NCBI RefSeq assembly: GCF_000003605.2
Contig: NW_003148270.1
Span: forward strand, 50,540 to 88,600
Source: Saccoglossus kowalevskii
Taxonomy: Eukaryota > Hemichordata > Enteropneusta > Harrimaniidae
Direction: 5' to 3'
Length of the DNA stretch: 38,061 bases
Part shown: in pieces, positions 4,767 through 38,061 of the stretch
Numbering within the stretch: position 1 is the first letter of the stretch
Layout of the letters: each line of letters opens with the position of its first letter
Made by a program: the position numbers and the translations under genes
Notes under the pieces: model-generated
The model's database searches: none
What the model was told of the DNA's origin: nothing
What the model saw: the letters and a program-made list of their open reading frames with translations, nothing else

Positions 4767-4772
4767 TTTATT
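4767..4772 (-). terminator. Poly(A) signal AATAAA of gene A
   Basis: AATAAA on the minus strand lies just after the exon 19 stop. A signal at nearly the same distance follows the gene B stop. Confidence 0.5.
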
Positions 4773-4784
4773 CAAAGTAAAACG

Positions 4785-17823: not shown

Positions 17824-20800
17824 ATGTGTCCGTACTAATGAAATAAATGTGCACTTACAAACGAAGTCTTCACAATTAAGCTCATCAGAGCCATCGGGAC
17901 ATTGTGGATAACCATCACAAACAAAATATATAGATATCATCCTTCCAAACTCGCACTCAAATCGTGGCACAGCTGAAATGAAGGGATTTACCAGCATACT
18001 CAAAAACATGATTTAAGGCATAATTGAATACACTGCAAAAACAGTCAGGTAACCCATCACATACTCACTACATTTAGTTGGTGATTCATCGCTATCAACA
18101 ATACAGTTATAGTTAACAGTTTGATTATTTATTTCATCTACTTGGTGATTCATCACTGCCCTCAAAACAGTCGCGTAACCCATCACATACTTACTGCATC
18201 CGGTTGGTGATTTATCACTGCCATCAGGGCAGCCCGGTAACTCATCACATACTTACTACATCTACTTGGTGATTCATCACTGCCCTCAAAACAGTCGCGT
18301 AACCCATCACATACTTACTGCATCCGGTTGGTGATTTATCACTGCCATCAGGGCAGCCCGGTAACTCATCACATACTTACTACATCTACTTGGTGATTCA
18401 TCACTGCCATCAAGACAGTCGTGTAACCCATCACATACTTACTGCGAATAAGTACTGATAAATAATTTTAAACTCATAGTCGCTGTCGACATAGGAAGCA
18501 AAGTAAGCAAATAACACCGAATAAACGGCAAGGTAAATATAGTAAATACGTACTGCGTGCGTGACTCGAACCGGCGCTCGCGTACGGCACCCAATCGCCT
18601 TGCTTCACGCCACTACACGTCTTCCCCTCGGCCACCTGGCATCTCCCAAAAAAGGATGCTTAATAACCGAGCTTATTACGTACAGAGAACATGAAACCCG
18701 TCCACGCGATCCGCGCCACATAGCGTGGCCAGAATGCGGCAAAGGCCTTCAGATCTGGCTGTAGTAGGATGGTGAAAGTAATGGTACAGCATTATAACAG
18801 TGAATAAGTACTGAGAAATAATTTTAAACTCATAGTTGCTGTCGACATAGGAAGTAAAGTAAGCAAATAACACCGAATAAACGGCAAGGTAAAGACTATG
18901 TCTAATTATAGTAAATACGTACTGCGTGCGTGACTCGAACCGGCGCTCGCGTACGGCACCCAATCGCCTAGCTTCACGCCACTACTCGTCTTCCCCTCGG
19001 CCACCGGGCATCTCCCAAAAAAAGGATGCTTAATAACCGAGCTTATTACGTACAGAGAACATGAAACCCGTCCACGCGATCCGCGCCACACAGCGTGGCC
19101 AGAATGCGGCAAAGGCCTTCAGATCTGGCTGGCTGACATACTTACTGCATCCATTTGGTGATTCATCACTGCCATCAGGGCAGTCCGGTAACCTGTCACA
19201 TACTTACTGCATCTACTTGGTGATTCAACACTGCCATCAAGACAGTCAGATGACCCATCCCATACTTACTGCATCCAGTTGGTGATTCATCACTGCCATC
19301 AATACAGTCAGGTAAATTGTCACATACTTACTGAATCTAGTCGGTTATTCATCACTGCCATCAAGACATTCGGGTAACCTGTCACATACTTACTGCACTT
19401 AGTTGGTGATTCGTCACTGCCACCAAGTCATTCAAGTAACTCATCACATACTTACTGCATCTACTTGGTGATTCATCACTGCCATCAAGACAGTCAGGTA
19501 ACCCATCACATACTTGGTGTACTGGTACACATACCACTCCATCATGACAAACAAAGTCTCCCGGGTAACAAACTGACATAGAAATAGTATGTGTAGTTCG
19601 TGAGAAGTGGTCAATATAATCAAATGAACGTATTAGTTGTTTTATATTAATTCGAATTGTAATTATTGACAAGGGATGACCACTATTATACATTATAATT
19701 GTGTGTTGAAAGCTAAGGTTGATATCGGAAATATCGTTGCAAATACATGACTATCAATGATATAGTCTTCTCCAATGACATCTCAATAAATATGCAATTC
19801 ACCTCCACGCATATACTAAGTACAGATACTAAGTAACTATAATAATCTCAAGGACAACAGTAACACTTATTTATTAGTCTGATAATTTAATATGTAATAT
19901 ATGATACTTTATGATTATTTTTATTGTAAAAATAAAATGTCAATGTGACGCACACCGAGTACAAATTTGTTTCCTACCTATTGCCACTGTTTGTTTTTTT
20001 TTGACATGCGGAATGATATGATGATAAACCACCGAATAAAATACGTTATTTGTGCATTTGGGGATAATTGTTGCATACTAATAACTTCTCATAGTTGAAA
20101 CTTACTTATATTAATAGAAGAAATAATAAATAATGTGTCTATACATGTGCCATAGATACAGTGATAGTATGTACAATTAATTACATTAAAGAAACAGCTT
20201 GTATTTTTTTTAAAAAGTTTGCGAACTCAAATTTAAAACATATTTCGAAAATCCCCGTTACTGCCATTTTAAATGTGTGTTTTTTTCTCCAATTTTTAGC
20301 TCCGCTGTCGATAAAGTTGACGACGCAGAGCTCTTCATTTAACTAATTGTCCGTCGGCGTCCGGTTTAGTATGTAGTCTGTAGTATGTCGTCAACTTTTA
20401 ACATTTTTTTTTCTTCTTCATTAAAACCGCTAAACCAAATGCTTTCATATAATTTTGATGAATATTTTTGTTATTTTTGGTAAAAAGCAATATTTTCAAC
20501 TCCTTGAAAGTCCAATTATTCTGATAGTATACATAATGTTCATTTTTAGATGATAATCAAATTTTGCATTGCGAATGGCGAAGCTATCTCAGCTGACAGG
20601 CTATTCTACGGCCCACCTCATCTCACTACGAATGGTGGATTGAAAACGGGAACATTCAAACGTTTCCATAATGCGCGGCTCTTACGTTGAACTTCGAGTG
20701 CGGGTTAAGAATGACATAGCCGAAAGTGATACAAAGAGGTATCCTGATAAAAATGCGAAATTATGATCTGTGGCTGTATAGGCGATATAATATGGGAAAG

Positions 20801-22747
20801 ATGAACTTAACAACTACAGTTTGCTCAATTCAAATTCAGTATAGATATTTTAAAAATCCTCCTACTGCAATGTTTTTTTTTAAATTCGTTGTTGTAATTT
20901 GTTTCAATTCAGTAATAATATCACACAGTGCAGTCTATTGCGTCATGCGATTCTTCATCCCACCTCACCTCACTTAAAGCGTAGTGTTGCAAGCTGGAAC
21001 ATTAGAACGTTTACATGAAGAGCGCGACTCTTACGTTCAGCGTTCTAGTTTTAATGATGAAACGCGCGTCTAACATGGGAGAGAACGTGTTTACCTTGAA
21101 AAAAATGGTGAATTCATGATTTGTGTATGTATATACGATATAACACAATGCAACACAAAACTAACTAACGATTCATACTGTCCTAAATACTGTACCTTGT
21201 TTTGGTTCTAGACACGTCATACCACAATCAGTATCACAACATTTCTGGTTGAAAGGACATTCTGCGTCATGTTGACATTTAATGTCACACGACAGACCAG
21301 TGTTTGTGAATGGACAACGGCCTGGCTTTAAACCTGAAACAGTGGATACAATAACTTAGGTTATCTAGTTTCACTAAAATGCGCTCAATAAAATATCAAC
21401 ATCTCAGTCTCATTAAAAAAACATGGCTTTTACTGGCAAATTTGTAAACATTTTTTAATTATGCCATCAAATCTAAATAATGAATAAATAAATGATAGCT
21501 TACATCAATCGTTAACGATAACTTGTGTAAATCTGTACAAGTCGTGATTCACACTCAAACGAAAGTTTGTGATTCACTACCGTGGTGCTTATCTGCCCCA
21601 CCGTAACCTTTATGCGAAGTACATATCACAATCAAATAGAGGAACAGTAATCAAATCACCAAATTCATTGATAAGTCGGATGTTTACATACATTTGTCAA
21701 TGAGTAATACTTTAATTTTGAATGGTGAGTTAACTGTCGATACATTTTACACACTAGTACCTACAATTTATCCGAAAACAATTCACACAATCATTTGTAT
21801 ACAGTTTTTCCTAAGTCTTAACACAGTGCTGTATAGTACTATTTACCTTTACAAACTGGTGGTGGTTGGTTAGGAGCCGTAGCTGTATAAGCAATAACAT
21901 TTCCATACATATTGACACATACGCATATGCCTGTCATCGAACACTGTGTTGGTGAAAAACTGCCATCTTTCTCACACTGAATTTCTATGTCGCGAAACTG
22001 ATCGTTTTGACTTGCCGCCAAAGCAAACTCATGACAGTATTTAGGATCCTTCTCCACGTTAATGGCGTTATCTAGAATCATAAATCATCAAAATTATCAT
22101 AATTGTTTTACACAATTTTCTGCTTATATATATGTAGTGAGTTATAATAATACTAAATGTCGGCGAAATGTATTTGTGTCCGCGCGATCTTTTGCGTTCT
22201 ATGGGTCAATTTTTGTTCTGTCATGCACAACATAATTCATGCGTCCGATGTAAACAAAATAAACTTATTAAATGCGAAATAAATATTACGCCCAATAAGA
22301 AAGACTTCAATGATGTTCGTTACTATATCAAACTCATTCGTATTAATTATAATAATGTATGACATGTTCCATATACTGTTAAAAAAATAATGTCGTAGTG
22401 TGTGGGTATTGGGTGTAAACTCGGCGTGCCAGTTGTTCCATGCTATCTTTTGACAAGTATATCAAATTGAAAGATAGTATTCGTACACTCGAGAGAAAAA
22501 TACCGTGCTTTCTAAAATGCTGAAAAATTAGATATTCATTAATGTTCGAAAACTACTAACACCGGCAATTGCCTCAACTAATATTTTAATTGCGTATAAC
22601 ATGTCCAGGTCGTGTAATGCATTTGCTTATTATTGCAATGAGTCGCAGCAATAAACTATATGTGTACAAGTACATACCTTGATTTTTAGCTGCACATATT
22701 TGATACAGTATACAAAACACCAGCACAACACTTCCTATTCTCTTCAT
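4785..22747 (-). CDS. Gene A: secreted Tg1-WAP-LDLa multidomain protein, whole spliced gene
   Basis: This is a spliced gene assembled by eye from 19 candidate exons, listed separately. The predicted order is signal peptide (residues 1-20), thyroglobulin type-1 domain (24-98), WAP domain (99-144), then single-exon LDLa modules to the end. All internal exons are multiples of three and begin and end in phase 1, the pattern of exon shuffling. Junction codons are all sense codons. Using the stop in exon 18 the coding length is 2091 nt (696 residues); skipping exon 18 and ending at exon 19 gives 697 residues. No transmembrane helix or cytoplasmic tail is seen, so the product should be secreted. Tg1 and WAP domains often inhibit proteases and LDLa modules bind calcium and protein ligands, but the role of this protein is unknown to me. 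Exon calls are firm; which 3' end is used is not. Confidence 0.85.
5634..5749 (-). CDS. Gene A exon 18: LDLa module 15 with lost donor and in-frame stop
   Basis: The acceptor is TGCAG and the six-cysteine module ends DGSDENNC. In gene B the exon ends TGTG/GTAAGT. Here the same place reads TGTGAATAAGTATG, so the GT donor is gone and the frame runs into a TAA two codons after the last cysteine. Either this is now the last coding exon, or the exon is skipped and exon 17 joins exon 19 (both phase 1, so the frame is kept). No AATAAA was seen close downstream, which slightly favours skipping or a distant poly(A) site. Confidence 0.75.
5849..5959 (-). CDS. Gene A exon 17: LDLa module 14 (four Cys, lacks Cys1 and Cys3)
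   Basis: The exon has 37 codons, acceptor TATAG, donor GTGAGT. It reads [16 protein letters not shown], then [17 protein letters not shown]. The central loop is basic and proline-rich. The gene B counterpart at 35927-36037 shares both the loop and the missing cysteines. Confidence 0.83.
6274..6387 (-). CDS. Gene A exon 16: LDLa module 13 (six Cys)
   Basis: The exon has 38 codons, acceptor ATTAG, donor GTAAGT. It is a standard module, with [19 protein letters not shown] and [11 protein letters not shown]. The gene B counterpart at 36378-36491 has the same length. Confidence 0.87.
6703..6801 (-). CDS. Gene A exon 15: LDLa module 12 (four Cys, lacks Cys1 and Cys3)
   Basis: The exon has 33 codons, acceptor TGTAG, donor GTAAGT. 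It reads [15 protein letters not shown], then [16 protein letters not shown]. The gene B counterpart (36799-36897) also lacks Cys1 and Cys3, so the loss predates the duplication. Confidence 0.83.
6992..7108. mobile_element. Short GC-rich inverted-repeat element (MITE-like), intron 14
   Basis: Arms at 6995-7017 and 7077-7101 (GGCGGTSGTCGYCGCAC-type) flank an AT-rich core. TTAA lies at the right end; the left flank reads TCAATT and may be a decayed TTAA. It is GC-rich against the AT-rich intron. No counterpart is visible in the gene B intron, so it probably inserted after the duplication. Confidence 0.55.
7449..7556 (-). CDS. Gene A exon 14: LDLa module 11 (six Cys)
   Basis: The exon has 36 codons, acceptor TCTAG, donor GTGAGT. 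It is a standard module, with [12 protein letters not shown] and [14 protein letters not shown]. It matches the gene B exon at 37917-38024 in length and most residues, and is the first exon of the block shared with gene B that is visible here. Confidence 0.87.
7910..8005 (-). CDS. Gene A exon 13: LDLa module 10 (four Cys, lacks Cys1 and Cys3)
   Basis: The exon has 32 codons, acceptor TTCAG, donor GTAAGA. It reads [12 protein letters not shown], then [16 protein letters not shown]. Only Cys2, Cys4, Cys5 and Cys6 are present. Confidence 0.8.
8632..8745 (-). CDS. Gene A exon 12: LDLa module 9 (six Cys)
   Basis: The exon has 38 codons, donor GTGAGT. The acceptor AG directly follows a short (TA)n run. 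It is a standard module, with [13 protein letters not shown] and [18 protein letters not shown]. From here to the 3' end complete and Cys1/Cys3-less modules alternate, until the last two, which are both complete. Confidence 0.85.
9848..9958 (-). CDS. Gene A exon 11: LDLa module 8 (six Cys)
   Basis: The exon has 37 codons, acceptor TATAG, donor GTAAGA, phase 1-1. It is a standard six-cysteine module, with [11 protein letters not shown] and [13 protein letters not shown]. Confidence 0.85.
10546..10659 (-). CDS. Gene A exon 10: LDLa module 7 (six Cys)
   Basis: The exon has 38 codons, acceptor AACAG, donor GTGAGT, phase 1-1. Six cysteines are present. The last part reads [16 protein letters not shown], where the Asp-Cys before the final loop is Ile-Cys, so calcium binding may be weaker than in other modules. 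Confidence 0.8.
12583..12946 (+). repeat. 362-bp dispersed repeat with terminal hairpin, copy 1 (intron 9)
   Basis: The segment matches the reverse complement of 24032-24393 over its whole length. Its 3' end folds into a hairpin: arms 12837-12867 and 12910-12940 pair over about 27 of 31 bases. No coding sequence or tRNA boxes are seen. Probably a non-autonomous mobile element of unknown class. Confidence 0.75.
13243..13427. repeat. Pentanucleotide array (TATAT)n then (TTAGA)n, intron 9
   Basis: About 30 units of a 5-bp TTATA-type repeat, with one interruption (TATTG near 13373), change into about six TTAGA units at the right end. The apparent open frame through it is a by-product of the repeat. 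Confidence 0.95.
13527..13664 (-). CDS. Gene A exon 9: LDLa module 6 (six Cys)
   Basis: The exon has 46 codons, acceptor TTTAG, donor GTAAGT. A linker SIPGAYVTE precedes six cysteines; the acidic end reads [16 protein letters not shown], with Glu in place of the Ser of the usual SDE. The long ATATT-type array starts about 100 bp downstream of its donor. Confidence 0.82.
13665..16933 (-). other. Introns 7 and 8 of gene A
   Basis: Apart from exon 8 (15293-15388), these 3.2 kb show no further LDLa, WAP or Tg1 signature and no clear repeat. Confidence 0.6.
15293..15388 (-). CDS. Gene A exon 8: LDLa module 5 (four Cys, lacks Cys1 and Cys3)
   Basis: The exon has 32 codons, acceptor TGCAG, donor GTAAGT. 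It reads [16 protein letters not shown], then [11 protein letters not shown]. Cys1 and Cys3 are missing together, as in modules 2 and 3. Confidence 0.8.
16934..17053 (-). CDS. Gene A exon 7: LDLa module 4 (seven Cys)
   Basis: The exon has 40 codons, acceptor GACAG, donor GTAAAT, phase 1-1. It has the six usual cysteines plus one extra next to Cys5, in [10 protein letters not shown]. The odd cysteine could stay free, be a variant, or pair with another chain. Confidence 0.82.
17054..17345. repeat. Two-copy tandem duplication in intron 6
   Basis: The segments at about 17054-17187 and 17188-17345 share gacaacattaatattgtgtg, acattatcttgctg and ataatccaagtggact. The first copy abuts the acceptor of exon 7 (GTCGACAG); the second has GTTGACA at that place. 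Confidence 0.8.
17638..17727 (-). CDS. Gene A exon 6: LDLa module 3 (four Cys, lacks Cys1 and Cys3)
   Basis: The exon has 30 codons, the shortest module, with donor GTAAGC. It reads [11 protein letters not shown], then [16 protein letters not shown]. The acceptor AG is the end of a perfect (TTTA)24 tract. Phase 1-1 matches its neighbours. Confidence 0.8.
17729..17824. repeat. (TAAA)24 microsatellite forming the intron 5 acceptor
   Basis: There are 24 perfect tetranucleotide units (TTTA on the gene strand). They occupy about three quarters of the 131-bp intron 5 and end in TTTAG, the acceptor of exon 6. Confidence 0.95.
17859..17972 (-). CDS. Gene A exon 5: LDLa module 2 (four Cys, lacks Cys1 and Cys3)
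   Basis: The exon has 38 codons, acceptor TTTCAG, donor GTAAGT. The core reads FECEFGR, then [18 protein letters not shown]. Cys2, Cys4, Cys5 and Cys6 are kept and the first and third cysteines are absent. Calcium-site acidic residues are intact. It is followed by an intron of only 131 bp. Confidence 0.8.
18446..18761 (-). repeat. SINE-bearing segment, copy 1
   Basis: The segment matches 18802-19131 closely. On the minus strand it holds a class II tRNA-like promoter: A box TGGCCGAGGGG (18624-18634) and B box GGTTCGAGTC (18563-18572), with the spacing of tRNA-Leu or tRNA-Ser. This points to a tRNA-derived SINE; a working tRNA fold is not evident. Confidence 0.7.
18802..19131 (-). repeat. SINE-bearing segment, copy 2
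   Basis: Near-identical direct repeat of 18446-18761 with the same A box (about 18993-19003) and B box (18932-18941). It has a 14-bp insertion relative to copy 1 near 18893. The two copies are separated by 40 bp and both sit inside the minisatellite. Confidence 0.7.
19456..19572 (-). CDS. Gene A exon 4: LDLa module 1 (six Cys)
   Basis: The exon has 39 codons with acceptor GTCAG and donor GTAAGT, phase 1-1. All six LDLa cysteines are present, with [13 protein letters not shown] carrying the calcium-binding acidic residues. Its 3' half, donor included, is the source or relative of the 61-bp tandem repeat that fills the following intron. Confidence 0.85.
19573..21195 (-). other. Intron 3 of gene A (1.6 kb)
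   Basis: It holds the diverged tandem pair at 20560-21170. The rest shows no gene signal. Confidence 0.6.
20560..21170. repeat. Diverged two-copy tandem duplication in intron 3
   Basis: Copies about 345 bp apart share cccacctca, ggaacatt.aaacgttt, cgcg.ctcttacgtt and gatataa blocks (about 20610-20800 and 20957-21145). They contain GC-richer patches than the rest of the intron. Confidence 0.65.
21196..21333 (-). CDS. Gene A exon 3: WAP (four-disulfide core) domain
   Basis: The exon has 46 codons between a TTTCAG acceptor and a GTACAG donor, phase 1-1. It begins GLKPGRCP and has eight cysteines in WAP order, including [10 protein letters not shown] and DCGMTC. WAP domains are small secreted folds; many inhibit serine proteases or are antimicrobial. 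Which of these applies here cannot be told from the sequence. Confidence 0.88.
21847..22071 (-). CDS. Gene A exon 2: thyroglobulin type-1 domain
   Basis: The exon has 75 codons between a TTCTAG acceptor and a GTAAAT donor, phase 1-1. It contains six cysteines in thyroglobulin type-1 spacing: KYC, EIQC, then GSFSPTQC, the doublet CVCV and a final PVC. The central Trp of the usual CWCV motif is Val here. Known Tg1 domains stabilise extracellular proteins and several inhibit cysteine proteases; inhibition is not shown by this sequence. Confidence 0.85.
22678..22747 (-). CDS. Gene A exon 1: start codon and signal peptide
   Basis: The exon has 23 codons plus one base. It starts [20 protein letters not shown], a basic n-region, hydrophobic core and small-residue cleavage site, followed by KNQ. 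It ends at a GTATGT donor in phase 1. The split codon completes as Asp with exon 2. This is the only upstream segment that gives an ATG in the frame of the downstream modules, so I take it as the translation start. Confidence 0.85.
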
Positions 22748-22798: not shown

Positions 22799-24031
22799 TT
22801 AATAGTAATAGCAAGAAATTATTTTAGTAAAAACTCGGTTATTGCCTGTCGGAAATAGCGTCCCATGTTTCTCAATAACAATATTAATTTCCTGAAAAGA
22901 CAATTAACTGTACCTAATTATAAACTGACCTGTGTGTATTCAAGCTACCATGGTGTATTTTATGATTAATAGGCATAATTTCAATTGTTACTGTAATTGT
23001 CCACGTTAGTACAAATTTTAGCAGTATATACATCAGAGATAAATCAATAGTAAAACGAGTTATACTGTTAAGGATGCTGTATACGTTTTTTTGCTTTGAA
23101 ACCCAAAATTCTAATATTTTGTATTTCTCAATATTGGACTCCAAGGAGAAAACAGTCAGTAGGAAAAAAAAGTGAATTGGATGTTTTATAGGGTGTACAA
23201 ATTCATTTTTGCTAATTAAAAACAAAAGCACATGTAATTGTTTTTAAAGCTATGTTTTAATTAATCACCCAAAGACATAATAGACAGATAATTTGCATAA
23301 TAGTCACCACCCATAGCAAATATAAACAGTCTCGTGCATTCAGTACAAGCTCGGGCTAGTGATATTAGTAAATATTAGTAGTGTGAGCATGAAGCCAAAG
23401 AAAGACTTGTTTTAGCTTAATGAACTGAGGTACAAGTTACACTTCAATAATACACGCATTCACAGTGACGCATTCCATATACGATAGTCCACAAATTTAA
23501 TTTCTTTGAAATTCTCGCTCTTCAAGCAGCCGACTATGAAACAGTCCCGCAGTCGACTATGAAAGGGATGAAAGAATGCGAATCCAATAAAATTTAGAGA
23601 TGAAGGTACTAACGTTAGTACCTTCCATGATTTATTTGATCAGACTATGGAGGTAGAAAATTTGAGCACATGGCAGACTTATTTTTCGTGACCAAATTAC
23701 AGATAATTACTGGTAATTGACTTCTATTTTATTCTGTCTGTAATATAATATGATTGGAGAAAGTTGGAAGGCTATTTCCGATTGCCCATTAACAAATAAG
23801 TACGAAAAGTCATTTCCGTGTCATTGCTATAAACATATGAATTAATGTTTAGCATATATATACTGAGTATATATGTTTCTATTGAGAAATGCAAGGACTA
23901 GGTGTTGGTGTACATAATAATATAGTCATGCATTTTGAATGATATACTTGTCAAAATACGAATTGCAATGCGCCAACTACATAAACTGCCATTACGTGGT
24001 TATACGTTATTTTCACACGTAATGTGTAAGT

Positions 24032-24393
24032 AATATGAGGTTATTACGAGAATACCTCATTGTATGTAGGAAGACAGTACAGCTGGAGTATCGACCGGCG
24101 CGCAGCCTGAGTGCGTACTTTGAGGTATTCTTGTAATAACCTTAATATTATACATCTTTTTCTTCCATGGATACATCATGGGGATGGCAAAACCCAAACA
24201 AAGTTTAGAATCAGCCAACTTCTTTGTGTGGAGTCCGGTTAAACCCTGATGGCAGTCATATTTGTTTGTATTATTAGAGAACGCTTACACGCGTAATCAT
24301 TCCAAAATTAAAATTCGCATTTCTTTATATGGTAGGATGAAAATACCCCGTAAAATACCGCACAATTATGGCACGCTGTAACTTATGGCGTTA
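24032..24393 (-). repeat. 362-bp dispersed repeat with terminal hairpin, copy 2 (intergenic)
   Basis: Reverse-oriented copy of 12583-12946. Hairpin arms lie at about 24038-24059 and 24121-24142 (tgaggtattcttgtaataac and its complement). The hairpin is kept while the loop has diverged, which suggests it is a structural part of the element. Confidence 0.75.
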
Positions 24394-25296
24394 TGATTGC
24401 AGATGTATAATATTATACAATATATTCAAAACATGCAGTATGAATTCAAGTGATTATAATGTTGACATTATTCTGATTTGTGCAAACTACTATTAGTGTG
24501 TTGATTTGAGATTTATAACTACAGCGAATTACATTAACTGCGTGAGTTGCAACAAAGCGATGCGATACAAAACGGTGTGAGAAAAGATGCATGTATGCAT
24601 TTGTCAATATGCATGAACAGTGATGACACAGTATTAGCTTCCAAACAACCTTCATTATGTTTCGGTGCATTTAAATATTGGGTTGTAGAGTGGGTTAGAA
24701 ATAGCGTGGTATTATTTAAGTCTTGTTATCGTGTATCTGGTAAATTGTTATATTAATCAACATGCCTCGTTACATACCATCTACTCAGTAGATTGTATTG
24801 ATGTGGATACGGCTAAGTTTTAAAATTAATATCCATACTGAAGTGTCCATTGGATCACTATGTCAAAGTGTGCATTCATGTGTATAGTTTAATTGTGTGG
24901 TACGAACTTGATAAATCCTAGATAGTCTAAATACACACGTAATTAGATTTTAATTGGAGACAATGCGCTATTCAATTTAGCTTAGTGTTAAATACATATA
25001 TTCACACTCACTGGGATTGTTAATAGCCACTGTATTAAACCTTGTATGTCTACATTGTATGTCGGCTGGCACGTTGGACAGTTAATATTTCTGCAGTTTG
25101 TGTGAACGCAATCTGGTTACCATAGTGATTATGCTACACTTTCGATCTCGATTTTTAGTTAACCCAGCTTGGTGAATGTCTGTGCATAGTAACTATTCGG
25201 GAACAACGAAATCACCTTAACAACGGCACTATGAGGACGTCACCTTGTATGCGTGGACAATTCAGCCGTGTCATAGTTTGGCATAACTATGTCCTT

Positions 25297-25468: not shown

Positions 25469-27341
25469 CAGCTGTACAGTAGAATCTGGGCGAATGCTCG
25501 GTTTTCCACCTTTCAAAGACGGTGGAATAATCTAGTCTGGTGGACAAGTCTATAAAAAGGGGTCAAAATCAAGCCTCGTGGCTGGCGTTTTACTACTGGG
25601 GTCCCCTCCATGTAGCACGGGGTTCCAAGGAGGAACGTGACGAAGTGTTCGCTATTCGATGTTTGCGGGTAAAGACGAAGACTACATTAAAGACCGACTT
25701 TCCACAGTTTGAAACATCTGCTTTGGTGTTAGAAGACCACATGTACGGGGACTGCCGATGACGGAAAAGTATAGTGAAGAGTAATAATGTGTGTGACCAC
25801 ATATTGGGATGTCGAACTTTGCGTCAAGTAACTGGTTATTAGTAACAGGTCCCACGAACACATTAGAATAGGCGCATAGTTATTCCTTATGTTTTGTTTC
25901 GCATATTTCACACTTGGTCCAAACATATGTAGTCTTTGCGAATTTACAACAGAGATAGACCATTAGTCACCTCATGCCCTCGTGTGTATTATTACTCAAA
26001 TAAATTTGGTTAGTTTGACCGTGAAAAGTATTCTATTGTCTGTTGCATGTATTCACACCACACTATTACTTCGTTCTACAACTACTAGATACTATGATTG
26101 TAGTTTCTGTCTTGGTTTCAAGAACCCACACAAGTTGGAATATCTGCATTATTTAGCATTAATTGGTTCGCCCTAGTCTCATCGCAATTTTCCGGCCAGT
26201 TTATGCAAACTGATGCAGTGACCTCTTGACACACTATACGAACTCCGCGCATAAAAATGCGCATTGTTATAACGAATCACAACCTGTCAAATGGATGTAA
26301 AACAACATTTGTTCATATGTACAAGACATCACAGGCAACCCAGTAAATTATTCAAATGACTTGTTATTGTATCGATTGAATCAGATTTGAAGCCTGACCA
26401 CTGTTTATTCATAAACTCTGGTCAGTTATGTAAAATCGCATGGCCAGAGATCATATAATGTTCTTTCAACCAGAAATGTTGTGATAATGGTTTTTGTTTT
26501 ACGTGTATAGAACCAAAACAAGGTACTGTACAGTATGTTGAAAGTATTAATAGCTTGTTTGCAGTTAGTTGCATGTTACGTTTTAATTATCGAGCGATGA
26601 AGGCGCCCGGTCACCAGTTCTATTGATCCTGTTTCATCACCACCTTGTAAAAATTGCTTTGGAATTCGAATAACGCAATTAAAGTAGTACGCATATTTTT
26701 ATTTAACCTTTAATTGGTCACGTAATTGTAAAAGTACATGCGACTGGTAGGATAATGATTAACATAGTAGTTACCATGCATTGTATTCGGTGTTATACCT
26801 TGTTGAAAAATGAGAAAATGTTTCTAGGGAAATGCCCCATCCCAAATAATCAGTATGCGTTTTTGAGAAATCAACTAGTGCGCTATTGTTTGTCTCGTTG
26901 AGGGCATCGATCGTCTGTCAACAATTTCAATTTTTTGTTTTGAAAACTTCCAGCTTGCAATTGATTGCGTCAATAACTTGGTATCTCCAATTCTCTAGTT
27001 TTTGAAGAATAGTTTTTACCATTCTTGGTTATAAAATTATTTATTGAAAACTAACAGCCGATTTGTTAATGTGTCATATCTGCTGCTACTGCAAAAACTG
27101 TTACCATTGTTACCCCAGCCCTTTTTAATATTGCTTCAATTTCTTTAATTTGACAACCGTACATTTTGTAACAAGGGTGAAAATCAATAATTATCATCCC
27201 AACTTTTATGAATGTCATACTGTGTAATCGCAGCAACGTGTCAACACAGTTATGTAGATAAATTTGATTCAAGTGAGAAACAAATCTTACAGAGTTTTCA
27301 ACATATCATGGAAAATTTGGTTCATTCACACATATCATTTA

Positions 27342-27475
27342 GTCCAGTGGATTTAGCCCTCAAACCGGCCAAACCGGGAAGTTAATAGTACATTAACAAG
27401 TTTGGTATCAGAAGATAGGGAATTTTTTGTAGATTTACCAAAAAACAAACAAACCAAGAACTGATAACATGGGCA
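27342..27475 (+). repeat. Left terminal inverted repeat of the 5.3-kb element
   Basis: It begins GTCCAGTGGATTTAG, has a short CCAAACCGG duplication not found at the right end, and ends near CATGGGCA. Confidence 0.7.
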
Positions 27476-28409
27476 ATTTTTATTTTACACGGGTAGATGT
27501 AAGGGTTAGTGTTTTTCGTACATTTTAGATTTTTCTTACATTTATATTTTGTAATTAATATTACTTACAGCCTACACATTATTTCATATAGATATTGCTA
27601 GTGTTTTCTATACACTTTTCATTTAGATAAACTGAAGAATCTATAGAACAGAAATTTGCTGATGTCAGCATTTTTTACAATTATATTAACCTTGTCAAAT
27701 AGTCAACCAATCTTTTGTTTTACCAGATACTCATCAGTATAACAACATATTTTTTCTTTATTTTTAAGCATTAGCATATAGGAAACTAAGCAGTGTTTGA
27801 ACTTTTAATGACTCGTTTGTAATTTCCAGGGCTTTTTAAAACCCTGTTATTCCTAAAATATAGCTGAATCCTGTTACACAAGGAAGATTGTTATGGTAAA
27901 CACTTTGCTATGATTACTTCTCTTTTTCCTTTCTGTATTAATTGCTCTGTTTAGAGTAATCATATTTTAATATAGTTAAAACAAGTCATTTGCAAATCCT
28001 TGCATGACTGTCAATCACAATAAATTGCTCAGTTTGTAAAGTCAAATTGACTTTTGATTATCATCACGTAATTTCCTTATATGGCAACCAGACGAACCTT
28101 AAGTAGCACAGGATTATGTCGCAATTTCTTTGCTTGAACACTTTCTGAATGCAAATACTGACAACTTTTACCATGATTTGAGGGATTTTGTGCGTACTAT
28201 ACGCGTCTTGTTTATGCTTGTGATAAATTTAGATTCGTACAACATAGCAACAACAAAACTCAAGATCCACGAAGATGAGTGGATGTAACAGATACAAGCC
28301 AGACTTCTCAGCATCAGCAATTTTACATGATTTCCACTATCATGCAAAAAATGAAGACCCTGAATCCGAAAAAAAATCGACTCATTAAAACGGCTGCACA
28401 ACTTATTAA

Positions 28410-29204
28410 AATGATATAAAATCGTCCAGAACACCTAGTCAATTATACCCAAACACTGAAGTAATGCAATGCACTGAGAAGGCCATTAAGTACCTTCCAT
28501 CCACCCTGAAAGTTTTACTTCAAGATATGTTTGTTGGAAAAGACACTGATGTTAAGGTGGCATCCATGGGGCAGGCCATCAAGCGGTCAGTTTGCCCACG
28601 AGTTATAGTGACTCCACTACAAATAGGACTTGCTGTTCAAATGCATCGCGAGTTTGGCTCACGATTTCTCATTGATTTACTCCATAGTCATGGGTTTTGT
28701 TCATCATATGCAGAGGTACAGAAGTTTGAACGTAGTGCCACCTTTCCCCAAGGAACTGACAATCCTGGTCTTAAACAACATTTTATACAACATGTAGCTG
28801 ATAATGTTGACCATAATGTTTAGACCATTGACGGGCTGAACACGTTTCATGGTATGGGCATAATAACGACCATAACGCCAGGGATAATGTGGAACAACAC
28901 CCAGAAATCACTTGAAATCCAACATAATGAGCCCACAAGTAGCAGTGTGAGGAATATCGTTCTCAGACTGGGTGGTCTACATGTGAAAATGAGTTTTCTG
29001 GGTTGCATTGGACATTTGATGAGTGGCCCTGGACTTAAGGACCTATTGGAGCCAATTTATGCCGAGAATGCTGTTGGACATGTGTTGAGTGGCAAGGCCA
29101 TTTCCAGGGCTATTAGGGGTCACATTCTAGTGGAAGCAGCATTATATGCATTGCTTTTGTCAATGATGTATGACCTTCCATTACCAAGAAGATACCAGTC
29201 CTAG
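28410..29204 (+). pseudogene. Fragment: N-terminal conserved region, one in-frame stop
   Basis: The frame stays open from 28410 to 29204 except for TAG at 28821, where relatives as I recall them have a residue such as Arg. It contains FVGKDTDVKVASMGQAIKRS, FGSRFLIDLLHSHGFCSSYA, DNVDHNV and FHGMGII, then a helical stretch with GHVLSGKAISRAIRGH. Confidence 0.75.
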
Positions 29205-29666
29205 AGAATTAACAGATATACCCGAAAATGGCGATTCCAGTAGTGCAAATCAGCCACAAACACAAGATACAACGAATGAGTTGAAAGGAGCAGGGACCAT
29301 CCTAGAGAGGCTGCATGCACATGAGACACGGCTATATCAAGTTTGTTGTAGACGGTTTGTTCGGAGGACGTACTGACTCTAATACAGGGAAAAATCAACC
29401 AATTCAAGGAAACACTCGCTTCCCTTAGAACATCCAAGTAATGGCTACAGTACATAGAGATGATTGAAATACTCTAGTAGTTCATTAAAGCTGAAAAACA
29501 ATGGTAACTGGTCACTCCATCTAAAAGCTCTTTCAGACATGCTTCCTTACTTTGCTGCATCTGGCCATAATCTCATGCAAAGTCAGTGTACATTTATATA
29601 TCGGATTATGTCAAAACTACCATAAAGTATTGCTGATGTATTTCGATCTTCCTGAATGAATACCAT

Positions 29667-30122
29667 GTGGTTAGTGGGACAGACTTGGCAGGTATATCGA
29701 CTGATCTTTCAATTGAACAAGTGTTGATGTGGAGTGTCAAACCAAGTGGGCTGACAAGGGGTAGAGGTATGTCAGAAATACAACGTACCGGTTGGCTAAT
29801 ATCAATACCTGTATGTGCAGAAGTCAACCGTGCAATGCAAGAGTTCACTGGTGTTTCTTACATCACAAGTGAGCAACACAAAGAGAGTGCAAAGACCAGG
29901 CAAATTAGAGATCATAATGACCTAATGGAGTTGGTACAGTTTCTTCGTGAAAGAAATCCATTCACGAACAACTCTTCTTTATGTAGTATAGCTACTGGAG
30001 TTGTTGCTGATGACACAGTAAATGTCGACAATGCTGGGTCTATTGGTGCTGAAATAATAAAGTCTATGATTGGAAAAAGCGAGAGTGATTTTTCATTCAT
30101 TAAAAAAGAACAGACTGTGTGA
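29667..30122 (+). pseudogene. Fragment: middle conserved region
   Basis: It contains DLSIEQVLMWSVKPSGLTRG, RGMSEIQRTGWLISIP, EQHKESAKTRQIRDHNDL and SIATGVVADDTVNVDNAG. The frame returns to that of 28410-29204. The stretch between 29376 and 29667 has only short remnants such as LKALSDMLPYFAASGHN. Confidence 0.7.
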
Positions 30123-30958
30123 AAACATCATTAAAGCTTGATGCAGATGAAGTACAGGTTGATCCCCAGTTGTTATTTCAAAGACTTGTTTCCATTGCAA
30201 GGGGAATTGTATCAACAGACGAGTTTTCTAGTATTTTCACATATGAGCTATGTACTCATCCACCAGTATTGTTTGCCTCTGATGGACTGATTAACAAGCC
30301 AGCTTTAGCCGAAGCAGTCTGGAAGTGTGTTGGTCCCATTACTAGTGACATGTCCATTGAGGTTAATATGTAATTGATGGAGGTTCACTTTTACAGAGAA
30401 TTCCATGGCCACGAGGACTAACATATAAGGGCATCTGCAAACTTTACCTTGATTACATTGACCGCAAATATGGTAAAGCATCAACAGTTGTTTTTGTTTG
30501 CTATCCAGATAGGCCATCAACAAAAGACACAACTCACCTTAGGTGTTAAATAAGGAAAATGTCTACTGGTGTTTAGTTTGATTCTGACATGGTTATGAAT
30601 AATGAAGAAACAACAGTTCCTTGCAAATGCAGCAAATAAGCAGCGGTTCATTAATATCCTGGGAACTGAACTGGAAGAGAAAGGAATCAAGGTTCAAAAT
30701 GCTGAAGAAGATGCAGATGTCCTTATTGTGATGACAGCTGTAGACTCTGCTGTCAATGCACCAATGGAAGTTGTAGGTGAGGACACGGACTTGTTAGTGT
30801 TGTTGATCTACCACGTCAACTTAAATAGTCACAAACTGTATTTAAAACCAGGGGCACTGCGTCAAAGTCAAAGTGTGGGACATAAAATATACCAAAGACA
30901 AACTATGACCACTTGTTTGCAAAAACATATTATTTATACATGCTGTCTTGGACTGTGA
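30119..30958 (+). pseudogene. Fragments: PIN-like acidic-motif region
   Basis: Three frames are used: 30119-30373 (ending before VIDGGSLLQRIPW), 30370-30549 (GGSLLQRIPWPRGLTYKGIC, then PDRPSTKDTTH) and 30602-30958 (NKQRFINILG, AEEDADVLIV, VVGEDTDLLVLLIYH). The spaced acidic motifs resemble a PIN/FEN-like nuclease fold, where acidic clusters bind metal. That assignment is inference from motif look, not from a search. Confidence 0.6.
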
Positions 30959-31032
30959 CACCACATCCAAGATGGCTTAGGAAAGAGGTCTGTTATTGAA
31001 AAAATTTCAAACCAACAAGCAGTTTCAATGTC

Positions 31033-31431
31033 ATGCTTCGGTGTTTGACCAAGATGGTGCTTCAAAAGACGACATTGTGGAATCAGAAGAAAAAGCTTTT
31101 GTCCGATGAAACATTGGATTCACTCAGAATGGGAAAATTCTTTCAGAAAGTTGCTACAATCATTACATGTGTAGGGCCTTGGAATATTCCACCAACACCT
31201 GCAGCTGTAGGTTACCATAGTCAACGGGTATACCACCATGTTCTGATGTGGAAAGAGCAAACTTATGTTATTCCAGAAGAATGGGGCTGGAAAGTGAAGA
31301 AGGGAAAATTGCTTGCTATCCAAACTGACAAGCCTCCTGCACCTGACAAATTACTAAAGTTATCAGATGTAAATGTAAATGTAAAGCAGACTGTCGAACG
31401 ACACGTTACACATGTAGAAAACATGGACTAA
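31033..31431 (+). pseudogene. Fragment: C-terminal region before the Cys cluster
   Basis: The first third is out of frame. From about 31117 the family sequence resumes, with MGKFFQKVATIITC, PPTPAAVGYHSQRVYHHVLM, EEWGWKVKKGKLL and KPPAPDKLLK. A frameshift near 31365 separates it from the cysteine cluster. Confidence 0.7.
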
Positions 31432-31544
31432 AATGCTCCCCCATGTGTGATGAATGTAGAGGTGTAAGCTGTAGTAATTCACCCAATCTGGATCCTGATG
31501 ATGATCAACTATATTATTATAAACTTAGAATTATACTGACTTGA
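31362..31544 (+). pseudogene. Fragment: TSO1/CXC-like cysteine cluster
   Basis: In the third frame the sequence reads RCKCKCKADC, then CRKHGLKCSPMCDECRG and SCSNSP, and ends at TGA (31542-31544). The spaced Cys-x-Cys pattern with RKHGL resembles the zinc-binding tesmin/TSO1 CXC domain, known to bind DNA in other proteins. It could be the DNA-binding end of the element's protein. Confidence 0.65.
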
Positions 31545-31881
31545 TTTGATGATTGGCCAACCAACCAACCTATTTTCATACCAATCCCAAACAGAATGAA
31601 GGTATGACAAAACACAAGTCTGATCATGTTAGTTTGTAACTGTCTCATTCTACCACAAACTTAGATATAATCGATACCTCACAAGTCTTGCAAAACACTC
31701 TTTTGATATTACCACATCAAACCTTGACTTGAGCTACCTTCATTATGTGATCATTGCCGCATTCCACATACCTGTAACTGTGAAATGTACTTCATATATA
31801 TTACCATTGTATCACCAATCTTTACATGATACAATCACATACACTTTGATAAACATGATTTATTTGTGTGTTTTTATGCAG

Positions 31882-32029
31882 GGTGCGAGTTATGCAGACC
31901 GACTGCAGCAAAGTATCAAGTTGATTTGGCGAATGATGGATCTAAATATGCCCCAAATATTCCTGAAATTGTGTTTTGTAATAATGAAAATGATATATGA
32001 CAATAATTGCAGAGATTTCTATATTGTGT
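31882..32029 (+). other. Possible extra 3' exon inside the 5.3-kb element
   Basis: A pyrimidine-rich stretch and TGCAG at about 31875-31881 precede an open stretch with CELCRPTAAKYQVD and PNIPEIVFCNNENDI before a TGA. It looks like an acceptor plus short coding exon, but no matching donor is certain and the motif is unknown to me. Confidence 0.25.
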
Positions 32030-32532
32030 AGAATTTATATTGATAAAATGCCAATGGAACAAGACTAATACCAGAGCCTGTATATTTCTGAAAATATCAC
32101 CACTTGGTGGCGCTGTACATGCCTATAGAGGGCGATTCGCCATGCGCAAAAACATGTTTAGCTGACTAAGTGTGGTAAGTGTGATAAATATGTGGATATT
32201 GACGATTATCATCCCATATGCATTTGCATATATACGTCTTACTGCATCAATAAAATGGCTTAATATTTCCATTATCAGTACCTGAAAAAAATAACTTTCA
32301 CTCTGTCCGGTTTTGGTAGTCTTTTGATATGTTGTTGTATATGACGTCATCATGCATGTTGAAGTGATCTGTTACAGATGCAGATTTATATATTACATTT
32401 ATTGTTTTAAAAATATTGTTGCTATACAGTAATACATTTCAATGGTAATTAGAGGTTATTAGAGATTATTGCATCTGCGGTAGGTAAAATCAGTGCTAAA
32501 TACAATAAATCTTCAACATGCTCTAAAAAAAG

Positions 32533-32649
32533 TGCCCAATGGTTTAGATCTTGGGTTTTTTGGTCATTCTCAATGACCTTAGCCAACGTTTGAAACAAAA
32601 TTCGCTAATGTACTATTTTACTCCGGGTCAAACCCTAAATCCACTGGAC
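32533..32649 (-). repeat. Right terminal inverted repeat of the 5.3-kb element
   Basis: The reverse complement begins GTCCAGTGGATTTAG at 32649 and aligns with the left repeat for 117 bp. Confidence 0.7.
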
Positions 32650-34859
32650 CAATTCGCATATACAATAATAATGAAGATCATCTCATGCTAGGAGATGAAA
32701 TTCGAATAAAATAATTCCCCGATTTCTGGATCCTTATAAATTGTAATTTGACGGTGTTGAGAAATAAAACCACTATATGTCATCAGATTTACAGGTAGGG
32801 TATGCTATGTCAAAAGGTCATGCAAATGAAACAACAATGGGAAATTAGAGACCTTAAGGATGTTGTGATTTACGCCGCCGTTTTGAAAATATTTTTTCTG
32901 AATATTATCAAGCCTTGGACTATACGAACTCCCACCCCAAGGTCTAATCCAAATGTCTTATCAACTATTGCCTAATCATAATGTTTTTCACTTGTATACT
33001 TCTATACATTACGGCATTTGAAGGCGAACAAGATTTGTTGGTTGACCAAACACCAAATCCCATGTTAAGCACATGTAATGACATCTACAAATAATGAGTA
33101 TCGCACATAGGTGAAAGTCAACAATTCAGCAAAAGCTGAAAAACGGCATTTTTGGTCAAAATGTTAGCATGACAATCTATTTTGTGTAGCGCATGGTCTG
33201 TTGACATCATGGCTAAACTAAATGTGCATTGAACTCCTGAGTTTTGCATAACGCGTTCAAGGTTGCTGTGGGGTTGTTTTTGAATGACCGAGGCATATCA
33301 TCTTGAATAATTTTTGTTTAAAGAAAGTTCCAGAATTTGTAAATTCCACCAGGAACGTGCACAACTTGCAATAATGCAACACAAACAAAAAACAAAGCTT
33401 ATTGAACTTGTAGAACATGCTGATAAACTAAATATTGTTTCATCGGAGTCTGGCGACCGTGGAATATCGAGTTAAGCCCGCCCTACTTTGCAAACCAGTT
33501 ATGCTTATAGTTGAAATTTACTTTTGCATTCTTTTCAAAAAAACATCAGGGTTTTAAATAACACTAATAATAATTATGTGCATGTCATATATGTATTTCC
33601 TACAAACTATATGTACAGACTGTTTTCTGTGAAGTTTTACTTTTGCGGATATCATCACTGCAAATATAAACATGGCAATTAAATGACTTTGTTATCATCA
33701 TCGATCGAACGTCTGCTGGGAATAAGTATGGAAGACTAAACGAACAGTTTCTCACATGATGAACAGTTGTTTCGTCCAAAAGTCGAAGATATTTCGCCAT
33801 TGCAATACTAGCTAACCATTTCATATGCCTGTTGGTCCGAATGAGAATATTCCGCTTACCACACGATGCTAATCGGGTGCATAGAGAATTAATTAATTCA
33901 ACCCATCTTCAAGCGCCAAACACCGCTGTCATCCGGGTACTTTGTTACGCTTTCTAGTGGCGTCCTTGCGAAACGCGGCAACTCAAAATTCAAAATTAGA
34001 TGTGTACCATTCTAGCATCCGGAAACTACAGACCACGTGATGTAACCACACATGTATATTCCGCTTTCATATTAACAGGCTGCACATTCCAACATCTGCA
34101 GAGATATTGCGATGACCGAGAAATTAGTTTTCACATTTGTTGTAAACATTGCTTAGAGGCGCGTACAATGACACAAAAAGATTACGATCCAAACAAATGA
34201 GTTATGACCCAACTATTAACCCAACAGAATAGTCAACCAATCACCAACTGACTGATTTTCGTTGCATCGTATACCAATAAAAGTAGTACCACTCCATGTT
34301 AACCACACATAATCGTCAATATTTAGGCGCCTCTGTGTTAACCCGTTCACCAACACGTGCTTCAAAAAACGAATGACATAACTCAATGTTCATTACATTT
34401 ATAAGTATATATATATAAGTAATATATTAGTAGTAAATTTCACGTGATGAAGACGCATTTAAATTTGAGTAATCAGTATGTACAAATAGCTTTTATTTTG
34501 CGCATCCGATATGAAGAGAGTTTTGGCTTTACACTGTTTCGGCGATGAGGTAAGAGGAGATGTAACATTCTTTATTCGATTTACTATTACTAACATTGGA
34601 AAAATAGTAAACAGTCTGATATAACTACTTTATTATGCGTATCTGTACAATTTACACTTGATGAATGAATATGCAAACTATTCTCCCAATTTGTGTTTTG
34701 TAGTTTGTCAGGATAGTTTAAAGTACAATAAATCCCTAACATTTAAAATTTCTTGCATTATTGAATGAGGATAAAACACAATAAAACATCGGGAATATAA
34801 TTTTTGAGAATCATACTACCTACATATTGAGAAAATTTCAAATTTAAAAGGCACGAACT
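32650..34859. other. Intergenic region between the 5.3-kb element and gene B
   Basis: I see no supported gene or clear repeat in these 2.2 kb. Confidence 0.55.
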
Positions 34860-35269
34860 CCGATAGCTACGAGTATTCAATTTTAAAACCTCCTCAATAA
34901 CTGAATAATTAAAATATATTTTTTAAATTATGTTGTAATAATTTTAAATCATTTCCGTCTACCTAAAGTAGAGTTCTAAATGTGTAACCTTTATTCTAAT
35001 TATCTATTCATGAATTTACAGAAATGTTAACCGACATGCATGTGTCCAGTTGCATTTTTACATCAATATAAGACAATATAATATATCGTGACAAGTGTTA
35101 TTTTAAATTTCATGTGCTTGTACTGTGTAAATGTGGGACACAACGCTTGCCTTTCAGACACAATCTTTGCATTGTTAACAATTCTCATTTGTATTGTATC
35201 TTTATTTATTTATATTTATACTATTTATTACGTATCTATATTAGTATTCAACAATACCAGAATTAATGA

Positions 35270-35275
35270 TTTATT
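35270..35275 (-). terminator. Poly(A) signal AATAAA of gene B
   Basis: AATAAA on the minus strand lies about 16 nt after the gene B stop codon, a position similar to that in gene A. Confidence 0.5.
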
Positions 35276-35291
35276 ATTGGAAATTAAAACG

Positions 35292-35410
35292 TTAAATTTC
35301 GTCACATGATTGTTCATCAGAATTGTCCCCACAATCGTCATAACCATTACATTTCCATGACAACGGTTTACATATTCCATCATCACAACGGAACTGGTCT
35401 TCTCTGCAAA
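35292..35410 (-). CDS. Gene B terminal LDLa exon
   Basis: The acceptor is ATCAG in phase 1; six cysteines, ending [11 protein letters not shown] and TAA. The length of 119 nt equals gene A exon 19. No membrane anchor follows. Confidence 0.87.
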
Positions 35411-37833
35411 CTGATCAAAAAAAGTAAAAAATATTGAAATCTGCATTCGAATAATAACCCCAGAAGTAATCTCAAGAGCGCTCGATACAGTATCGCAGTT
35501 ATAATGATCAGTGTTATAAAATGCGAATGTTTCGTCGTCATTAGTAGCGAGAATACTGGACGACAAGAACTTCTAAAAAGAAAATTATACCAAATATTAA
35601 TTAACATAATTTTACTCCTGGATTATTACGTATTAAAGTCAGGCTTGTCGTAGACGAATCTTTGTAATACCTCTTATTTGCTGTTAATAATTGCTTATAT
35701 TATTCATACTTACCACAGTTTTTTTCGTCTGAACCGTCTCCACAGTCGTCGTTGCCGTCACAGATATTGTATCTTGAAACACAATATCCTGTATCTGAAC
35801 ACTTCATAGTAAACGCACGACATTCTGCAAGATGACCAAATTGGCAAACATATTGCAATCAGCAAATAGGAAGTTATTCTAGGTAGGTATTATAATGAAA
35901 TCGGCGTGTAAGAACAATTCACTCACCACAGCCCTTCTCGTCGCTTTTATCGGAGCAATCGAAGTTCATGTCACAAATAGGAGAGGGAGAGTCTGGTCGT
36001 CGCTTTATTTCATCTCCATTGTCACAGACGTGAATTACTGCATAATATAAAAAATATTCAGATTACACTGAATTAGCCATTAGTAGTAAAAGTGTACTAG
36101 AAGGCACAACAAGTACTTACGAAGCAATGGGACTCATCTAGTATATGCAGTGTGTGCTAGTAAGTCATATAAAACCTCTAGTAAATATGCATGCTTTTAT
36201 TTTTGAGATAGCAAACTTATTCTCAGGATTTTCAGAGGCCATTGATAGTTTAAAAATCACATGACAGTTCATTTCCAATATCATCATACCACAGGGAAAA
36301 TTTTCAATTCACAAATTGCAGGACCTAACAATATTAACACGTATATATAACAGTGATACATTTGAAAAATAACTTACCACAATCCTGCTCGTCAGAATTA
36401 TCGCCACAGGAGTCATATCCGTTACACTGATCATAATACCACTTACAAAGACCATTATCACATCGAAATCTATCATCACTCTCATCACATGCTAATTAAA
36501 ACGAATAAGACATGATAGGCCATAAAAAGTGTTTGCAATTTATTGTGCATGTATTCTTTACACTAAAAATGTTAAATGAAACTAACTGACAGTATGTGTA
36601 TATAACATTTCTCTGGGATTTCTACGGTTGCAAATCTCACAAAACGCCATTTATTCAAGACCAAAAATAAAAACAAAAACAAACAAAACGACATATGCTC
36701 ATATTGGTAATCTCAAAGACACACAATTTTAGTTTCTTAGCAATGAGCTAGACAGTGCTGTGATATACCTCATAAACATAGAATGACCAGAAACTTACGA
36801 CAATCTTTTTCATCACTTTGGTCAACACAATCGGCATATCCATTACAAGAATAATTTCCTTGAGCTAGAAATTGTCCATCATCACATACATAGTACACTG
36901 TAGAGACAAATAATATTTACGGCTAGCTATGCACTTTCAATTCTTCAGTTATTCATTGTGTTATATATTACGCTAGTATAGATACTAATTCTTAATATGA
37001 AGTATTATGTTAATATTCACTAATATTGTGTCAATATTTCCAACATGAAGTTATTATACATGATATACTAGTATTGAGTCGTTATGCCATATCGCCTCAT
37101 ACATTATCACTGAATATTGTTGCTATATCAAGATTGCTAACATCAGAACTAAACAAATTATGTCCTCTTTGTGTCGCTATTTATATATATATGTACTTTC
37201 AGATATATATATCCGTTTAATTATGTTAAAAGATACCTCTTATTATTAAATAGCTCCATCACTCAACAATAATTAGAATGAGCGAGTTTGATCAATCAGG
37301 TGCATTTATTGGCTAAGCTTGTATGCGATTCTGAAAAAGATTTATTTTTTATTGCTGGCAATATTCTAATATGAATTGGGAGCAAACTGTGACACCAAAT
37401 CTAGTCGTTGTATTGTTATGCTTCTAAAATAAATTGTTCAAATGTCTTGAAACAGATTCAAATATAAGGTTATGGATTGTAAAATATGAAGATTAAATAG
37501 TGTCCAACAAATTAATTTGTAAATGGTAAATTTATTTTAAAGATTTCAGTGAAAATATTATAAAATAAAATAAATTCAATCGAAATACTATGTGAATCTG
37601 TGGATGTGGAAAATATTAAGATGTGAGGTCTGCAGTTCTTTGTTTTTTAATTAGTTTATTCCTGAAAAAAACTTGTATTTTAAAGACTGCAAACAATAAA
37701 ACACTCACAGTGCAAGGCTAGTTCACCAACATGTCTATTCTCTTGCTCGAGTGTGAAAGTACATGGTTTAGTCACTAACTCTTATTTTTTTGAATATTAG
37801 AATTTGGAAAAGTTTTTCTGTAAAAAAATAAAC

Positions 37834-37880
<47 letters not shown>

Positions 37881-38024
37881 TATATCTATATATATGCATC
37901 TGATAGCGTAACTCACCACAATTATTCTCATCACTGTTATCACCACAGTCATCGTAGGTATTACATATGCCATACTCAGGCCTACATAAACCATTATCAC
38001 ACTTGAACGCGCCTTCGTCGCATT
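35292..38024 (-). CDS. Gene B: 3' part of a tandem paralogue of gene A
   Basis: Six LDLa exons (listed separately) are visible before the window ends. They match gene A exons 14 to 19 in order, length, phase and in the pattern of complete and Cys1/Cys3-less modules (6-4-6-4-6-6 cysteines). Introns are also alignable, for example the stretch rich in aaaaacaaaaacaaac before exon 15 in both copies. All donors are intact, so gene B reads cleanly into its terminal exon and TAA. The 5' end, including any Tg1 or WAP domain, lies beyond the right edge. The product is probably secreted like gene A, by inference only. Confidence 0.85.
35714..35824 (-). CDS. Gene B LDLa exon (counterpart of exon 18, donor intact)
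   Basis: The exon has 37 codons, acceptor TGCAG, donor GTAAGT. Six cysteines, ending DGSDEKNC. This is the reference for the damaged gene A exon 18. Confidence 0.87.
35927..36037 (-). CDS. Gene B LDLa exon (counterpart of exon 17; lacks Cys1 and Cys3)
   Basis: The exon has 37 codons, acceptor TGCAG, donor GTGAGT. It reads [19 protein letters not shown], then [10 protein letters not shown]. The acceptor of gene A exon 17 is TATAG instead. Confidence 0.83.
36378..36491 (-). CDS. Gene B LDLa exon (counterpart of exon 16)
   Basis: The exon has 38 codons, acceptor ATTAG, donor GTAAGT. Six cysteines; almost identical to gene A exon 16, with [16 protein letters not shown] at the end. Confidence 0.87.
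36799..36897 (-). CDS. Gene B LDLa exon (counterpart of exon 15; lacks Cys1 and Cys3)
   Basis: The exon has 33 codons, acceptor CACAG-type (ACAG), donor GTAAGT. It reads [17 protein letters not shown], then [10 protein letters not shown]. It has four cysteines, as in gene A. Confidence 0.83.
37838..37897. repeat. (TA)n microsatellite in gene B intron
   Basis: About 60 bp of TATATA with a few C and G interruptions. The corresponding gene A intron lacks it. Confidence 0.9.
37917..38024 (-). CDS. Gene B LDLa exon (counterpart of gene A exon 14)
   Basis: The exon has 36 codons, acceptor AATAG, donor GTGAGT. It reads [19 protein letters not shown], then [10 protein letters not shown]. Six cysteines are present. 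A (TA)n tract of about 60 bp lies just downstream in the intron. Confidence 0.87.
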
Positions 38025-38061
38025 CTATTAAACATCAAAAGCAGCGTTAATTAAAAAAAAA

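Follow-up and report, generated by a model that had tools for sequence, protein, structure and literature searches.

The 38,061-nucleotide stretch of Saccoglossus kowalevskii DNA analysed here (contig NW_003148270.1, positions 50,540 to 88,600, forward strand; hereafter the window, with positions counted from its first base) contains a 5,312-bp element at 27340-32651, whose inverted repeats are the two ends of an old, decayed and genuine multi-copy DNA transposon family. Judged by published descriptions and not by sequence alignment, this multi-copy cut-and-paste family belongs, with a probability of roughly 80%, to the nuclease branch (AcademX) of the Academ superfamily, and the window holds one of its decayed members. 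The filing is held to that figure because it was made from descriptions and because the nuclease found no confirmation in profile searches. Just as probably, this is a new family within an already named kind of DNA transposon. An earlier, sequence-only reading had proposed an undescribed DNA transposon with a possible nuclease-like core and a CXC-like DNA-binding end. The transposon is borne out, because copies share the ends, the gene enclosed by them and a 3-bp target duplication outside. The nuclease-like domain and the cysteine-rich tail also stand at the motif level, whereas the nuclease as core is not supported and the undescribed status is doubtful.

The window element has outer ends TAGTCCAGTGGATTTAG and is flanked by a 3-bp target-site duplication (TSD), ATT. 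The outer 15 bases of its repeats, GTCCAGTGGATTTAG, are identical between 27342-27356 (plus strand) and 32635-32649 (minus strand), as first noted by the sequence-only reading, and the true ends lie two bases outside this match, at 27340 and 32651. A scan of the whole window allowing up to three mismatches found just these two sites, both exact, and two or more sites at that threshold were also found in 18 of 100 shuffles. Under strict scoring 27339-27481 and 32527-32652 align, with gaps, at a score of 42.0, a value that has no random-pair control. Looser gapped scoring gave 72.5 for the pair of 400-bp flanks, whereas none of 979 random pairs of 400 bp drawn from the window scored above 48.0. 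Between the arms the gene lies in pieces in differing, alternating frames from 28410 to 31544, which agrees with the broken gene copy described earlier.

We then searched the element's own genome assembly (572 Mb, 4830 contigs). The left end is present at no fewer than 24 places including the window (25 hits, of which two fall on a single copy), and 20 of the at least 23 others (L015-L034) were studied together with the window as focal copies. For sixteen of these 20 loci the alignment to the element exceeds 900 bp and extends into the same gene in the same order, so other copies sharing these ends, the condition set by the sequence-only reading, do exist. L015, L025 and L033 carry left-end sequence alone (273, 348 and 291 bp), and L030, 500 bp long, has both ends but lacks the gene. 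Over the aligned parts the copies are 82-90% identical to the window. Both ends could be placed in nine of the 21 focal copies; each of the remaining 12 lacks a recognised right or left end, and in L020, L026, L029 and L031 the sequence ends before the right end.

A 3-bp duplication was found in 15 of the 16 copies with both ends placed, and the 15 comprise 13 different sequences. Eight of the nine focal copies carry one (window ATT, L017 TCA, L018 AAA, L019 TTG, L021 TTA, L023 TAT, L024 GTA and L030 GTT); the other seven duplication-bearing copies are diverged families with other long terminal inverted repeats (TIRs). When the two ends were displaced by 1-8 bases, 0 or 1 of the 16 still showed a duplication, and crossing flanks between copies gave 4 of 240. 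The length of the duplication would also fit a different superfamily with 3-bp TSDs, such as PIF/Harbinger, EnSpm/CACTA or Zator, since such TSDs are described for PIF/Harbinger and Zator in excerpts of PMC2213677 and PMC10045372, respectively. However, no Pfam transposase model matched, and the variety of duplicated sequences likewise argues against them. Furthermore, we know of no PIF/Harbinger, EnSpm/CACTA or Zator element with a nuclease-like domain and a CXC-like tail, which also counts against an origin that we consider very improbable.

Ten diverged loci were chosen by protein match, nine of which remained after setting aside L036, which is cut by a contig end. Seven of the nine are bounded by long inverted repeats that differ in sequence but have TAGT-like outermost bases, and carry a 3-bp duplication (L035 TAT, L037 CTT, L040 TTG, L041 TCT, L042 AAT, L043 ATA and L044 CAG); the exceptions among their ends are one right end reading CAGT and one left end that is one base short. 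The protein matches of these seven are 25-44% identical. In the diverged L044 (1700-5111) the inverted repeats are very long (798 bp, 92%), and both arms hold matches to the Cys-rich tail. Two more diverged nuclease-part matches (28-29%, in open frames) lie on the minus strand of a small contig (L015; C1712:929-1417 and 7972-8460) that also carries a left end of the focal family.

The gene shows a DDE-type transposase signature, then XPG/FEN-like acidic motifs and then a Cys-rich CXC-like tail. The copies L031 and L021 read ADNVDHN...TIDG...TFHG, followed by an FDQPMWW or FDQPLWW segment and a stretch like LRLGGLHVQMSFLG, and the diverged L036 has an 830-amino-acid open frame that spans the DDE region and the IEQ motif and reaches the beginning of the nuclease-like part. 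Motifs were tallied over the window and 32 loci (L015-L046), each denominator being the number of loci that have letters aligned at the site; these loci are copies related to one another, not independent observations. In the DDE region the D of VDHN is retained in 21/22, the D of FDQ in 19/23, the H of GxxH in 24/25 and the E of IEQ in 17/20. The VDHN Asp, the FDQ Asp and the IEQ Glu are the putative catalytic acids, a choice made from these motifs. The nuclease-like part is not supported as the core of the protein, as a separate DDE-type signature lies upstream of it in other copies and relatives; the earlier reader could not have seen this region whole because the window copy lacks the part with the second Asp.

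The acidic motifs downstream run in the order DGGSLL, VFDGY, DADV, EDTDLL and GCDTTS with GxGK. Their aspartates are kept in 12/14 (DGGSLL), 11/15 (VFDGY), 12/13 (both of DADV), 16/17 and 16/18 (EDTD) and 18/22 (GCDTTS), and both the DDE-like and the nuclease-like motifs are retained across copies and diverged families. The order and spacing resemble those of XPG/FEN1 nucleases, with acidic residues that we take to be equivalent to those of FEN1. In human XPG, APMEAEAQCA...TDDSDIWLF parallels SPGDADVDIV...GQDTDLLIL of L037, and the EAEA...DDSD pair, present in a host XPG segment as well as in the human chain, parallels the element's DADV...QDTD. The nuclease assignment is a claim at the motif level. 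A rough 13-fragment nuclease profile gave no match in the PDB, a weak negative because at least one fragment (L018:7360-7812) is plainly misaligned in the source alignment.

The nine cysteines of the tail are retained in 16/21, 16/21, 20/21, 19/21, 20/21, 20/21, 18/18, 16/17 and 14/14. CXC domains are characterised by a CxC...CxC...C...C spacing, and the tail has a spacing like that of the CXC (TCR, PF03638) domains of tesmin and LIN54. PF03638 has 11 matches in the element's own genome, none of them in the focal family; one (C362:67306-67416) has a diverged nuclease-part match about 5 kb away. The terms PIN-like and CXC-like used earlier are fair descriptions of motifs, but no Pfam, NCBIfam or PDB match attains a curated cut-off, and none supports either term. 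An N-terminal CxxC...HxxC motif occurs in the diverged L036, L037, L039 and L040, and more weakly in L038 and L042 (E 0.24 and 1.0) and in a short piece of L035 (0.75); it was looked for in the focal copies and not found.

Several observations weigh against the AcademX reading of these sequences. By hand count, seven of the 25 gene places with at least 70% identity have no left end. The same places, together with the gene-less L030, which is like a miniature inverted-repeat transposable element (MITE), favour a rival explanation in which repeats and gene have nothing to do with each other, as with a pair of MITEs next to a host gene. However, the left end does lie near the other 18, and of three end-less places inspected, L048 and L049 start within the element (at element positions 667 and 338) and are truncated, and in L050 the expected end region gave no match. 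In addition, left end and gene part stand in the same order at 16/20 loci and the 3-bp duplications flank the unit as a whole, so that unrelated repeats are hardly credible. Further points against the AcademX reading come from the ends. L016, with an altered left end, shows no target duplication; the ends of L018 and L037 require small gaps (6 bp in the left end of L018); the ends of L018, L035, L037, L041, L042 and L043 were positioned in knowledge of the duplication, and a blind pattern scan supplied the remaining focal ends; and L038 and L039, with protein matches 44-58% identical, have no clear pair of ends. With respect to the nuclease, Pfam XPG_I (PF00867) has nine matches in the element's own genome, none at left-end, gene or nuclease-part places. 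A profile-profile comparison (hhalign) with a thin, two-sequence XPG segment scored 15.3, within the range of shuffles (best 17.1; n = 60), and sequence searches of Pfam, NCBIfam and PDB gave nothing above curated cut-offs, only scattered matches (best E 0.0026, next 0.0043).

The window copy is shorter than L018 by 373 bp near 28901 and by about 141 bp near 32341. The larger loss takes with it the FDQPLWW segment with the predicted second catalytic Asp, and with its stops and frameshifts as well, the window copy cannot yield an intact enzyme. L019 and L022, which at 89.5% and 89.4% identity are among the copies closest to the window, align across about 28901 likewise without the extra segment. 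The shared loss suggests a non-autonomous sub-lineage that was amplified after the deletion. Because L019 and L022 share the loss and the target duplication of L019 differs from that of the window, this deletion derivative probably spread by being moved in trans by other copies. No unbroken gene was seen among the focal copies examined, the longest real open frame being 391 amino acids in L031; a longer frame in L027 passes through N and was not counted.

Features of the element in the window. Catalytic residues are putative and assigned from motifs; L numbers are loci elsewhere in the genome.
Feature	Position	Strand	Remark
Left TSD, ATT	27337..27339	.	Equals 32652-32654
Left TIR, outer end TAGTCCAGTGGATTTAG	27340..27481	+	End found at no fewer than 23 other genome places
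Transposase piece ending ADNVDHN (putative first catalytic Asp region), then stop	28410..28823	+	D of VDHN in 21/22 loci
Transposase piece TIDGLNTFHGMGI ... LRLGGLHVKMSFLGCIG	28824..29204	+	Translation, motif tally
Deletion point: 373 bp of L018 including FDQPLWW (putative second catalytic Asp) absent	28901..28904	.	Also absent from L019, L022
Transposase piece with AGISTDLSIEQ (putative catalytic Glu region)	29637..30122	+	E in 17/20 loci
Linker piece, transposase to nuclease-like regions	30104..30373	+	
Nuclease-like piece 1: YVIDGGSLL ... TVVFVCY	30367..30549	+	Other copies mostly VFDGY or similar
Nuclease-like piece 2: NAEEDADV ... VVGEDTDLLVLL	30599..30958	+	Translation, motif tally
Nuclease-like piece 3, other frame, one inner stop: LFIHAVLDCDTTSKMA	30876..30977	+	Frame 0 translation
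C-terminal piece downstream of nuclease-like region	31000..31431	+	
Cys-rich CXC-like tail CKCKCKADCRTTRYTCRKHGLKCSPMCDECRGVSCSN	31347..31544	+	Pfam gave no match with an E value of 1 or lower
Second deletion point: about 141 bp of L018 absent	32336..32341	.	
Right TIR, outer end TGGTCCAGTGGATTTAG	32527..32651	-	
Right TSD, ATT	32652..32654	.	

The window holds further repeats. A repeat of unknown kind is present as inverted copies of about 390 bp at 12563-12949 and 24030-24412 (80-84% complementary by pieces); its one marginal likeness to the right TIR (score 33) was not used, the control being spoilt by inclusion of the TIR. Another inverted pair, of 168 nucleotides and 76% complementary, lies at 21188-21355 and 26363-26530, about 5 kb apart. 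Two arrays of a 62-bp unit, with five and six copies, occupy 18135-18445 and 19136-19515. A segmental duplication (4547-7559 and 35084-38027, pieces 77-90% alike, with a 54-nucleotide motif 16 times across the window) resembles what is presumably a gene of LDL-receptor class A repeats on the minus strand.

Relatives of the element were looked for in IMG/VR and in GTDB contigs, by protein and by pattern in each, and in phages, and none was confirmed. Four viral stretches of IMG/VR that fitted one pattern were rejected, as tblastn with 11 window pieces gave chance-level matches (best E 0.43). The pattern scan of GTDB contigs yielded two bacterial stretches.

In a model for the movement of these elements, binding and cleavage of the TAGT... 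ends would be the work of the DDE-type transposase, as would their joining to target DNA cut with a 3-bp stagger, which would yield the 3-bp duplications. During excision or joining, the nuclease-like domain of the same gene may process DNA ends or flaps. DNA binding may fall to the Cys-rich tail and, in relatives, also to the N-terminal CxxC...HxxC motif. The presence of a DDE transposase and a nuclease-like domain in one gene raises the question of why a cut-and-paste element would retain a second nuclease. For genome annotation, anonymous multi-copy genes of this kind become transposase genes, which should be masked and left out of host gene counts, and the conserved TAGT-like ends with the 3-bp footprint provide a simple key to further families.

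An alternative to the Academ filing is an undescribed superfamily apart from Academ, characterised by a DDE transposase, a nuclease-like domain, a CXC-like tail, TAGT ends and a 3-bp TSD. It is consistent with the lack of any Pfam or NCBIfam family model matching above cut-off, and with a literature search that found neither Academ with XPG nor a DNA transposon with PIN and CXC domains, a search of partial coverage whose silence means little. Against it, the TSD length, the nuclease-like part and the size agree with the excerpted descriptions of AcademX and Academ (PMC10045372, PMC10294476), and we consider it a minority possibility. Similarly, there is a small chance that TAGT ends, a DDE transposase with a FEN-like nuclease and a CXC-type tail define a superfamily of their own or a new branch sister to Academ, which would explain many multi-copy 'uncharacterized' invertebrate proteins of like layout. 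The earlier description of the element as undescribed is doubtful, and that status unlikely, given that a nuclease-encoding branch with 3-4 bp TSDs is already named in the excerpt of PMC10045372.

In that excerpt AcademX is tied to a nuclease and to TSDs of 3-4 bp, and AcademH to a helicase and to TSDs of 9-10 bp. The present element differs from AcademH in its 3-bp TSD, and the pieces scanned gave no Pfam helicase match. It agrees with AcademX and Academ in a 3-bp TSD in 15/16 copies, in TIRs around a gene and, at the motif level only, in a DDD/E transposase, and none of the features tested argues against AcademX. As to an encoded nuclease, the motif order fits XPG/FEN, but the Pfam model and profile comparisons are negative. 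Bivalve Academ elements have a mean length of 5565 bp in the excerpt of PMC10294476, and six of the 16 end-placed copies here measure 5.2-5.7 kb. The CXC-like tail is a feature of the present element, whose putative nuclease is recognised from motifs; by description, the element is like AcademX in its 3-bp TSD, nuclease-like domain, DDE-type motifs, TIRs and length near 5.5 kb.

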